64,000 bases of DNA from an uncultured Spirochaetales bacterium (GTDB lineage: Bacteria > Spirochaetota > Spirochaetia > Sphaerochaetales > Sphaerochaetaceae). The position numbers and the translations under genes are program-made. The notes under the pieces are model-generated. The model saw only the letters and a list, made by a program, of their open reading frames with translations, was not told the origin of the DNA and did no database searches. The stretch spans positions 1-64,000 of the forward strand of contig CASDZV010000025.1 in NCBI GenBank assembly GCA_949285905.1, read 5' to 3'. How positions within the stretch are numbered: the first letter of the stretch is position 1; each line of letters starts with the position of its first letter. Below, piece after piece: positions 52,219 through 60,063 of the stretch.

Positions 52219-52587
52219 TTAGGCAATACTGCCACTGGCTCTTCTCTCGTTTCCTTTTTTCGTAACTACATATTCAGTCGGAAGACCAAGTATCTGTTCC
52301 ACCATGAATAGCTGTGTCTCGGTAGCAGTGTATTCACATCTATTGGCAATTTTCTCTGTTCTTTCTGAGTAAAAAGCTTTCTCAGATATCCCGGTAAGAA
52401 GAGACTCGATAGTCTTTCTGGTAGCCTTGGAAAGACGAAGCAGATCCTCAGGTTTTGGCATGAACCCTCTTGATCTCTGCTGTGTGAGCCTGTGGTAATC
52501 TATGCCGCTAGCCTTAGCTAACTCACCTAGAGACCTGTAAGGATTGATCTGATCAATATTGTTCCAGAATTCCTGTACCGTAAACAT
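52219..52587 (-). CDS. Phage repressor-like helix-turn-helix protein
   Basis: 122 aa starting MFTVQEFW. Residues about 15-65 form a lambda-repressor-type HTH (YRSLGELAKASGIDYHRLTQ, KPEDLLRLSKATRKTIESLL); the C-terminal part is short and no LexA-type protease domain is present. It probably binds between itself and the divergent early gene to keep the phage silent. A TATACT box lies exactly 6 nt before the ATG at 52587, so the mRNA should be leaderless, as known for lambda cI from PRM. Confidence 0.8.
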   Translation of the reverse strand: MFTVQEFWNNIDQINPYRSLGELAKASGIDYHRLTQQRSRGFMPKPEDLLRLSKATRKTIESLLTGISEKAFYSERTEKIANRCEYTATETQLFMVEQILGLPTEYVVTKKGNERRASGSIA

Positions 52588-52593
52588 GAGCAA

Positions 52594-52599
52594 AGTATA
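52594..52599 (-). promoter_or_regulatory. -10 box of the repressor gene, leaderless arrangement
   Basis: TATACT on the minus strand, then TTGCTC and the ATG at 52587. The -35 is weak (TACTAT at 17 nt), as in maintenance promoters that need activation. A small palindrome AGTA-CAAA-TACT (52619-52630) just upstream is a candidate operator. Confidence 0.5.
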
Positions 52600-52641
52600 A
52601 CTGCATTTAGAAAATGATAGTACAAATACTTAAAAAATACC

Positions 52642-52670
52642 TTGACTTTTACTACTACTACTACTACTAT
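52642..52670 (+). promoter_or_regulatory. Early lytic promoter with repeat-built spacer and -10
   Basis: TTGACT (52642-52647), 17-nt spacer, TACTAT (52665-52670). The spacer from 52651 and most of the -10 are made of ACT repeats. It drives the plus-strand early genes starting at 52720 and faces away from the repressor gene. Confidence 0.65.
52651..52668 (+). repeat. ACT trinucleotide repeat, six units, in the early promoter
   Basis: Six perfect ACT units followed by AT. Because they lie between the -35 and -10 boxes and form part of the -10, loss or gain of a unit would change the spacing by 3 nt. A complementary TTTAGTAGT sits just downstream (52680-52688). Confidence 0.85.
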
Positions 52671-52719
52671 CAGGCTATCGTTTAGTAGTTCTACATAAAA
52701 GCGAGGTATTTGAATAACC

Positions 52720-52938
52720 ATGAAGGATGCATTGATGCTTGCTGTTCAGATCACACCTGAAGAAAGAGCTTCATCTAAGGAGATAGCCAGAAAGATGGGT
52801 ATGACTTATGCAGGTTGGCTAGGATTACTCGTTAAACGCGAACTAAGGAATTCAGATTCCGCCTCCAAGGAATCCGTATCTTCCGGCACCCAGTTTGGCC
52901 ACTGTGCCGGCGATATCAGGGACAGCGCACTGCTCTGA
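52720..52938 (+). CDS. Small early phage protein, unknown function
   Basis: 72 aa (67 if the second ATG at 52735 is used, which has AAGGA 7 nt upstream). ITPEERASSKEIARKMGMTY then AGWLGLLVKREL looks like a ribbon-helix-helix or small HTH, so it may be a Cro-like or early regulatory protein; this is a weak guess. First gene after the early promoter. The 3' end holds a 7-bp inverted repeat CCGGCAC/GTGCCGG around 52883-52910. Confidence 0.55.
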   Translation: MKDALMLAVQITPEERASSKEIARKMGMTYAGWLGLLVKRELRNSDSASKESVSSGTQFGHCAGDIRDSALL

Positions 52939-53002: not shown

Positions 53003-53341
53003 ATGCAGATAGAAGTACATGACGAAGAACTGATGAAAGAAATCCAGCTGATTAAGGATTCTTTCCGTCTGCTTGTTATCACCGAAGGCAAGCCTGTCGC
53101 CACTATCAAGCATATTGCGAAGATGGAAGGCTGTGCCGAATCCCAGCTCAGGCGCGGTGGCCGCGAGCGGTATCTCCTACCCCGGTTCGGTGAATCAGGA
53201 TATCCGACAGGTACATGCAGATGGGATATGAACGAGTATCTCGAATGGCGGGCTATACCGAAGGAAGAGAGATACAGGATGTGGCAGGAGCATCTCAGAA
53301 ATGAAGCCAGACGCTGTATAGGAAAACAGCGCAGGCAATAG
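53003..53341 (+). CDS. Phage helix-turn-helix DNA-binding protein (excisionase-like)
   Basis: 112 aa. The middle, ATIKHIAKMEGCAESQLRRG followed by YPTGTCRWDMNEYLEWRAIP, resembles a winged-helix excisionase or MerR-type first helix pair plus wing. GGAGG lies 7 nt before the ATG at 53003; the longer frame upstream has no ribosome site. It may be an excisionase or early regulator. No integrase is seen nearby to settle it. Confidence 0.6.
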   Translation: MQIEVHDEELMKEIQLIKDSFRLLVITEGKPVATIKHIAKMEGCAESQLRRGGRERYLLPRFGESGYPTGTCRWDMNEYLEWRAIPKEERYRMWQEHLRNEARRCIGKQRRQ

Positions 53342-58334: not shown

Positions 58335-58637
58335 CTATACCCATTTGTAAACAGGCAGGTTCTTGGTCTCAGAGATAAACTGTTCTTCCTTGTTGCGTCT
58401 GGAGAAATCAGCCTGGACTCTGACAAAGAAGTTCGGGCTCATGCCGAAATATCTTGCGAGTCTCCAGCATACGTCGTCGCTCATCTTGTTCTTGCCCTGG
58501 AGGATCTTGCTGAGAGCGGTAGCGGATATGCCGAGGTCCTTGGCAAGCCTGTAAGCAGAGAGATTGAGAGGTTCAATCCATTCCTCGTTGAGGTAATCAC
58601 CGAATGTCCCGAGATCTATCTTGTAAGTATCGTTCAT
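58335..58637 (-). CDS. higA: HigA-type antitoxin
   Basis: 100 aa. Residues about 25-80 are an XRE helix-turn-helix with YRLAKDLGISATALSKILQG and LARYFGMSPNFFVRVQADF, the HigA/VapI pattern. It neutralises the HigB toxin and represses the pair. It follows higB by 12 nt, the normal higBA order (toxin first). Antisense to the phage early operon. Confidence 0.88.
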   Translation of the reverse strand: MNDTYKIDLGTFGDYLNEEWIEPLNLSAYRLAKDLGISATALSKILQGKNKMSDDVCWRLARYFGMSPNFFVRVQADFSRRNKEEQFISETKNLPVYKWV

Positions 58638-58649
58638 ATGTTCACCTCC

Positions 58650-58931
58650 TCAATGGTAGTCAACGATTTCGACATCGTAGGCATTGCCGTCCTTCCAGGA
58701 GAAACAGATACGGAACTGATCGTTGATTCTTATCGAGAATTGTCCATTCCTGTTTCCCTTCAGCTGTTCAAGCCTGTTGCTTGGCGGGATTCTCAGGTCA
58801 GAAAGCGTTTCTGCCTCGTTGATGGCAATGAGCTTGTGCAAAGCTCTTCTTGCTATGTCAGAAGGCAACCGTCGAGGGGCATACCCCTGATAAACCAACT
58901 CGCTTTCCTTGTCTTTGAACGTTCGTATCAT
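58650..58931 (-). CDS. higB: HigB-type mRNA interferase toxin
   Basis: 93 aa RelE-superfamily toxin: MIRTFKDKESELVYQGYAPR, then RALHKLIAINEAETLSDLRI, PPSNRLEQLKGNRNGQFSIR and INDQFRICFSWKDGNAYDVE. This is the full-length HigB pattern. It cuts ribosome-bound mRNA when HigA is lost. Together with higA it may stabilise the prophage or act in abortive infection. It has its own promoter with an internal palindrome. Confidence 0.9.
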   Translation of the reverse strand: MIRTFKDKESELVYQGYAPRRLPSDIARRALHKLIAINEAETLSDLRIPPSNRLEQLKGNRNGQFSIRINDQFRICFSWKDGNAYDVEIVDYH

Positions 58932-59185: not shown

Positions 59186-60063
59186 TGGCTGAGAGAAGAA
59201 TGGTATCTATAAGCCTTATAGATGATGACCGCTTCCTGGATATGAGCCAGGGAGCGCAGTTCCTGTACTTCCATCTAACTATGAGGGCAGACGATGACGG
59301 CTTCATAACACCGAAGAAGGTCATGAGGCTGGTCGGTGCATCACAGAAGGATCTCGACGCCCTTATCAATGCAGGCTTTCTCATTTCCTTTGAAAGCGGA
59401 GTAGTCGTTATAACCCACTGGAGAGTGAACAATACAATCCGCAAGGATAGATACACTCCCACAAGCTTCCAGAAGGAATTCAATGAACTGACTGTAATTA
59501 ACGGTATGTACGCGAGATGCGCACGGCAACCAATGGTTACAGAAGATCATGAGGAAGGCAGAGAGATTGACAACCAACTGACTACCAATGGAGAACCGTC
59601 TGACAACCAGTTGGCAACCAAGTGTCAACCGGACGACAACCAAGTGGTAGACACAATGGCAACCGAACGGCAACCATCTGACAACCAACGGTTGCCACAG
59701 GTTAGGTTAGGTAAGGATAGGGAAAGAGAAAAGACTCGCTCTCTTATAGAGAGCTCGTCTAAAAGAGAAACCCCCTCGCCTGGCAACCAGATGGCAACCA
59801 GCATATCACCGCCAGTTCTCGATGAAGTGAAAGCATATTTCAGGGGAAATCTCCTTTCAGGAGATCCCGAGAGATTCTTCTATACATACCAGTCCAGGGG
59901 ATGGATTGATGCTGCAGGTATCCCTGTGAGGGATTGGCATGCAAAGGCCATGAACTGGTCCATCGATGAGAAGAGCAGGAAAGACAGCGGAGGCTCAAGA
60001 GACAAGCCCCGCGACTACGATGGCTCGTATGACAGCCATTCGATGAAGGAGGTCTCGCTATGA
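59185..60063 (+). CDS. Phage replisome organizer (DnaD-like N-terminal domain)
   Basis: 292 aa. The N-terminal SISLIDDDRFLDMSQGAQFL with FHLTMRADDDGFITPKKVMR is the phage replisome-organizer winged-helix domain. A long polar linker (about 115-195) follows, made of Asn, Gln, Thr and Pro, then a C-terminal DnaD-like end (AYFRGNLLSGDPERFFYTYQ, AAGIPVRDWHAKAMNWSIDE). It binds the phage origin and recruits helicase with the loader encoded next. The linker is encoded by 11-bp DNA iterons, so the origin probably lies inside this gene, as in lambda O. Confidence 0.82.
   Translation: MAERRMVSISLIDDDRFLDMSQGAQFLYFHLTMRADDDGFITPKKVMRLVGASQKDLDALINAGFLISFESGVVVITHWRVNNTIRKDRYTPTSFQKEFNELTVINGMYARCARQPMVTEDHEEGREIDNQLTTNGEPSDNQLATKCQPDDNQVVDTMATERQPSDNQRLPQVRLGKDREREKTRSLIESSSKRETPSPGNQMATSISPPVLDEVKAYFRGNLLSGDPERFFYTYQSRGWIDAAGIPVRDWHAKAMNWSIDEKSRKDSGGSRDKPRDYDGSYDSHSMKEVSL
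59527..59799 (+). repeat. 11-bp iterons inside the replisome organizer gene, putative phage replication origin
   Basis: CAACC boxes begin at 59527, 59571, 59604, 59615, 59626, 59637, 59660, 59671, 59682, 59784 and 59795, and one-mismatch boxes at 59582 and 59593. Within 59571-59647 the step is exactly 11 bp; 59527 is 44 bp before 59571. Consensus CAACCRNNYGR. Since 11 is not a multiple of 3, the repeat is read in all frames and cannot come from a protein repeat. A purine-rich tract and a palindrome (GCTCTC/GAGAGC, 59738-59754) follow. Confidence 0.75.

Follow-up and report, generated by a model that had tools for sequence, protein, structure and literature searches.

A conserved TAC triplet tract forms the spacer of a predicted early promoter in a prophage immunity region

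Between the promoter boxes of hifA and hifB in Haemophilus influenzae lies a (TA)n repeat that sets their spacing, and the tract of Neisseria meningitidis nadA, which varies at high frequency, lies upstream of the core promoter. In the case of nadA, operators for the repressor NadR flank the simple repeat, whose unit number alters output via spacing (PMC2791445); the vlhA promoters of Mycoplasma gallisepticum carry (GAA)12, one repeat number being considered active (PMC6258824), and the hif TA tract is mentioned in PMC2651432. The triplet tract described here shares with nadA the (candidate) operators flanking a repeat, but it is short, nearly fixed in number and placed inside the -35/-10 spacer. 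Like that of vlhA, it is a trinucleotide repeat in a promoter; however, the GAA tract sits some 40 nt upstream of the start and differs between genes and strains, whereas the tract described here makes up the spacer and is conserved. The hif repeat, in turn, is a hypervariable dinucleotide at a surface-antigen gene, in contrast to a stable triplet at a phage early promoter.

Among temperate phages, P22 encodes Arc, a ribbon-helix-helix (RHH) repressor whose operator lies in the spacer region of the Pant promoter, and RHH dimers can bind several operator sites cooperatively. The Arc operator spans 21 bp and holds no triplet repeats, and RHH binding to the array studied here is putative. The RHH-type virus regulator F55 of SSV1 is reported to bind tandem repeat sequences (PMC5569661). 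It belongs to an archaeal virus and its units are ATAGATAGAGT; the likeness lies in an RHH factor combined with tandem repeats, and binding at our locus is again putative.

Prophage setting and regulator genes

The stretch of DNA analyzed here, 64 kb in length and referred to as the window, comes from a Candidatus Ornithospirochaeta-like MAG, a gut commensal whose family we take to be Sphaerochaetaceae. From about 51.2 kb it holds a temperate-type prophage with a RecE-like exonuclease, a DnaC-like loader and a terminase, which extends past the window in the direction of the contig end (76.9 kb). The repressor (Table 1), whose form we call type A, matches PHROG repressor families (E=0.002-0.005) and, by profile, P22 C2 repressor structures (E=2e-4), while some members of its family match Phage_CI_repr (E=7e-5). 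In the model of the first early protein generated with AlphaFold2, the core has a pLDDT >90 and two helices are predicted with high confidence; the RHH strand, which forms in the dimer only, is not visible in this monomer. A VIA comparison placed almost exclusively RHH proteins in its top rows (Z 4-6), among them TacA, AtaR, PutA, Arc, AmrZ and CopG, Pfam gave NikA-like matches (E=0.003), and Foldseek alone was weak (E ~1). Judged by these matches to the RHH plan of a strand and two helices, the protein models as a member of the Arc/CopG superfamily.

The region resembles the lambdoid cI-OR-cro arrangement in that a CI-like repressor gene and an early regulator gene diverge, each with its promoter, in the several operator-like repeats between them, and in a repressor -10 close to the start codon. 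It differs in that the early regulator has an RHH-like fold, with no HTH Cro protein, in the triplet array within the PR spacer, and in the shortness of the repressor, which at 122 aa shows no cleavable C-terminal domain. Elsewhere in the prophage, a set of about eleven direct repeats of 11 bp, degenerate in sequence (TGACAACCAAC), lies at 59568-59801, within a gene of the replication region that precedes the DnaC-like gene, and could represent iterons of a phage origin. At 58335-58931, within the rightward early region, two leftward genes encode an HTH protein and a RelE/HigB-looking protein, a pair that by eye looks like a HigBA-type toxin-antitoxin system.

Table 1. Features of the immunity region, with positions in the window
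Feature	Position	Strand	Basis
CI/P22-c2-like repressor, 122 aa, HTH	52219..52587	-	PHROG and profile matches; Phage_CI_repr matches in its family
Repressor promoter -10, TATACT	52594..52599	-	Sequence; TATAAT/TATACT at equal distance in type-A relatives
O1, inverted repeat TAGTA-CAAA-TACTTA (TAGTACAAATACTTA), probable repressor operator	52618..52632	+	Pattern scan, type-A conservation
-35 hexamer TTGACT, early (PR-like) promoter	52642..52647	+	Sequence, promoter scan; TTGAC(A/T) kept in nearly all orthologous promoters with differing spacers
Spacer, 17 nt	52648-52664	+	Sequence
(TAC)6TA array	52650..52669	+	TRF, shuffles, genome scan, conservation in relatives
-10 hexamer TACTAT, final TAC unit + TAT	52665..52670	+	Promoter scan; TANNNT in same register in relatives
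O3, inverted repeat TAGTA-GTTC-TACATA (TAGTAGTTCTACATA), just past expected early start	52683..52697	+	Pattern scan, type-A conservation
First early gene, 72-aa RHH protein, Cro/Arc position	52720..52938	+	AlphaFold2, VIA, Pfam
Second early gene of operon, excisionase-like HTH regulator (weak)	53003..53341	+	PHROG 66, E=0.02

The early promoter and its flanking repeats

An earlier note on this DNA had placed TTGACT and TACTAT 17 nt apart, with a six-unit repeat forming the spacer and the -10, and sequence and coordinates bear this out. TRF reports a perfect tract of six TAC units plus TA, laid out so that TT and five units make up the spacer and the sixth unit opens the -10. The hexamer pair is recovered by a promoter scan with 9/12 matches, yet hexamers alone do not exceed chance (5 pairs found in the region, 5.2 expected). 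The repeat itself lies well beyond chance expectation, as 0 of 100 shuffles match it, even allowing 3 mismatches. No other run of four or more TAC units exists in the 2.35-Mb genome, and in 293 kb of that genome's DNA the tract is the sole perfect trinucleotide run of at least 5 units; a 5.9-Mb order-2 Markov simulation produced no trinucleotide run longer than 4 units. The promoter assignment is independently supported because TTGAC(A/T)-17-TANNNT recurs at this place in orthologous promoters whose spacers are unrelated; the note's view of an early promoter in a lysis-lysogeny region is supported as well. The early transcript is predicted to start at about 52677, 7 nt past the -10, which puts the array upstream of it, so that the proposed pairing of the array with a downstream AGTAGT is impossible in that transcript; AGTAGT instead forms part of O3. 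An Rfam search gave no match.

The pattern TAGTANNNNTACWTA matches the window at two places only, O1 and O3. Both are kept in type-A relatives, and the distance between their starts, 65 bp, comes near to 6 helical turns. The -35 zone of the repressor promoter is overlapped by O1, whose half-site TACTATCA has exactly two copies in the window, at O1 and at the array end over the -10, a count that is not rare, being reached by 41 of 100 shuffles. Within the type-A array there is no full inverted operator; by our own reading, AGTA-N4-TACT is present also at the start of the type-B array described below. Exactly 6 nt separate the end of the repressor -10 from the ATG, and a -35 is lacking; a leaderless, possibly self-activated repressor mRNA is predicted from this arrangement.

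Orthologous promoters in related prophages

A DNA search of 100 related genomes, together with RHH- and repressor-family profile searches over genus and family, yielded about 20 orthologous divergent promoters. In nearly all of them TTGAC(A/T), or a variant close to it, is followed after 17 nt by TANNNT. Five species carry the type-A repressor, with a unit number (n) of 6 in the window, G038, G044 and G004 and of 5 in G006. Type B, which has a different repressor HTH, comprises G029 (n=6) and G047 (n=5); in a second genus, G101 has TTGACA-CC(TAC)5-TATTAT (n=5), and in G023 (TTGAAA-GT(TTA)5-TACATT) the unit TTA replaces TAC. The spacer consists of 2 nt and 5 triplets, giving 17 nt, in 7 of the 9 intact array promoters. 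This holds for total TAC counts of 6 (types A and B) and 5 (G101) as well as for TTA units, and the dinucleotide varies (TT, AG or CC before (TAC)5, GT before (TTA)5). Since G101, with n=5 and a different junction, still has 17 nt, what is preserved is the spacing and not the length of the repeat. Two observations concern the surroundings of such promoters: the (TTA)5 spacer (L128/L194, G023:C2, about 40.9 kb) is flanked by TTTGAG-N6-CTCAAA-type inverted repeats, and two tandem CI-like repressor genes lie upstream of the G101 triplet promoter (L148 1339-2135, G101:C67).

The relatives' spacers form two groups, one with a triplet array and one whose slot often holds an inverted repeat: GTACGTTTTAACGTAC (G003), GGTGAATATATGTACC (G011), AAGGTACAAAAATACCTT (G122) and TACAA-N8-TTGTA (G127). 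Similar copies lie on one or both flanks, and the slot therefore looks like an operator in several relatives. The flanking copies are strongest in G122 (0/100 shuffles) and G127; in several relatives the palindromes are individually weak, and the statistic, a simple letter shuffle on short spacers, is itself weak for several loci. Similarity between spacer and flanking sites, considered as a guide to operator identity, is convincing for some palindromic relatives and not for the arrays, which fall within the shuffle range in type A, G101 and G023, type B alone being suggestive (4/100).

Across 395 genomes of the class, the pattern TTGA-(TAY)4 has 14 matches, 8 of which are the early promoter; of the other 6, which fall outside the family, at least 4 lie in reading frames, and L180 and L181 are ambiguous. 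Searches of IMG/VR by the repressor and by the excisionase-like early protein, and of phage GenBank entries by protein and by DNA, returned no relatives. A scan of IMG/VR for TTGAC-N2-6-(TAC)4 gave 66 stretches whose contexts look unrelated, none with the downstream sequence of the early promoter.

Conservation of the promoter can be set against that of its neighbors, using percentages that are our own division of alignment counts with gaps handled approximately. The 112-nt promoter stretch of the window is 99, 95 and 95% identical to that of G038, G044 and G006, respectively, compared with 81, 81 and 70% for the repressor gene and 78, 67 and 65% for the RHH gene; for G004, the promoter stretch stands at 82% and the flanking genes at 68-70% and 52-58%. 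Only 1 of the 112 positions between the repressor ATG and the RHH gene differs from G038, and G029 and G047 differ by 4 substitutions and one 3-nt gap in about 130 nt. Intact alleles show zero substitutions inside the array, the sole change being the loss of one unit. It is striking for a phage immunity region that the intergenic switch (52588-52700) is far more conserved than the adjoining genes. The array is thus real and selected: orthologous promoters in other species retain it, and in three relatives the promoter stretch reaches 95-99% identity against 65-81% in flanking genes. The tract is a conserved, non-random and somewhat unusual variant of a known promoter/operator architecture. Judged by sequence comparison, it may serve as a selected cis-element, at once spacer and -10 of a PR-like early promoter in a temperate-phage family, made of 2 nt and 5 triplets with a further TA-starting triplet at the head of the -10; jointly with the operator function considered below, our confidence in this is evenly poised.

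Candidate roles of the array

We suggest that the tract is a length-constrained promoter/operator array, belonging to a promoter that is likely regulated and to a region where phage proteins would bind, and consider this interpretation about equally apt to prove right or wrong. RNA polymerase would use TTGACT-17-TACTAT, and phage-encoded DNA-binding proteins would shut the early promoter by occupying the region: the repressor would bind O1, on the side of its own promoter, and O3, downstream of the early start, while the array would offer closely spaced, half-site-like steps (TACTA) to the repressor, to the RHH protein that the first early gene encodes, or to both. Its role would parallel that of the palindromic operator apparently working in the same slot of related prophages. 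Units would be gained or lost occasionally, over evolutionary time, resetting both the strength of the promoter and the distance from O1 to O3. Both the promoter activity and the binding of a regulator to the array are inferred. Conservation, the 17-nt constraint, the alleles one unit shorter, the flanking inverted repeats and the presence of RHH and CI-like genes are all observed and consistent with such a function. Moreover, in G018 (L009/L124, G018:C104), a broken RHH gene beside an intact repressor coincides with an array decayed to GC(TAC)3; this is a single case, from a prophage remnant adjoining a host-type gene.

What speaks against an operator function is that TAC units are common to types A and B, whereas the recognition helix of the repressor and the predicted strand residues of the RHH protein are not. 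For the same reason, the strand residues are unsupported as an explanation of the unit sequence, and a passive spacer stays a strong rival: the triplets would stem from old slippage, selection would maintain the 17-nt length and the -10, and nothing would bind the units. The 17 nt are indeed kept while unit number and flanking dinucleotide differ, and the units match neither regulator consistently. Predicted strength agrees as well, on a sigma70 score that is crude and whose base frequencies are approximate E. coli values: it peaks at the observed number in type A (n=6) and G101 (n=5), and in type B n=6 ties with n=4 for best. However, a free spacer should gather point changes, and no intact array holds a substitution although the flanking genes diverge by 19-45%; the slot, moreover, holds an operator-like palindrome in several relatives. 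On balance, we regard a merely passive spacer as somewhat unlikely. Alternatively, the array could act through DNA mechanics or a host factor, a TpA step every 3 bp making the spacer flexible or bent and aiding repressor dimers at O1 and O3, or a host protein reading the array. While this step is common to the TAC and TTA arrays and the O1/O3 distance is near a whole number of turns, a property shared by two unit types only is weak evidence, and the array is seen only at the early phage promoter, so we hold this to be very improbable.

The remaining alternative is the one raised in the earlier note, a phase-variable lysis switch in which slipped-strand mispairing toggles the early promoter among lysogens. 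As at contingency loci, the repeat is placed inside the promoter spacer, where its length sets the spacing; it recurs in G023 with another unit, and NadA/NadR offers a precedent of operators flanking a variable tract (PMC2791445). G006, and G047 relative to G029, are exactly one unit shorter in promoters otherwise 95-97% identical and are predicted to be weaker. The note's proposal that a one-unit change alters the promoter holds to this extent, the predicted effect being partial: on the same crude score, n=5 lowers type A from 10.2 to 8.6 and type B from 10.1 to 7.2, so these alleles are predicted to be weaker and not clearly off. In type A, unit loss is predicted to weaken rather than abolish the promoter because TATCAG enters the 17-nt register. 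High-frequency variation fares worse. Close relatives, sampled at one genome per species, have mostly n=6, and the comparison of related prophages that the note had called for gives n=6 in 4 of 5 type-A species with flanking genes differing by about 19-45%; the host encodes a full-length MutS-type protein (868-aa open frame), and no tract comparable to (TAC)6 was found in the 293 kb sampled. A near-constant n, the shortness of a six-unit tract, the presence of MutS and the lack of a similar tract in the sampled DNA together leave rapid phase variation unsupported. Across four H. influenzae genomes, identified promoters and regulatory regions held no trinucleotide SSR (PMC2651432). The note drew its parallel from pathogens; the MAG is that of a gut commensal, with no pathogen link found. 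A switch that flips fast and at random is not supported, and a phase-variable lysis switch seems unlikely to us; the natural alleles with one unit fewer may keep a slow, evolvable switch open. It is likewise improbable, in our estimate, that the tract is an evolvable lysogeny dial, with the phage family keeping a microsatellite spacer so that single-unit slippage grades or blocks lytic entry and n=5 alleles are locked or dampened.

The locus is a phage immunity region whose core promoter is built of a selection-preserved microsatellite, with a different unit in one relative. The alleles form a natural series (n=5 and 6, TAC and TTA, palindrome) in which to ask whether promoter repeats are switches, operators or spacers. 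If unit number sets lytic entry, slippage would provide a heritable tuning of lysogeny in gut phages.
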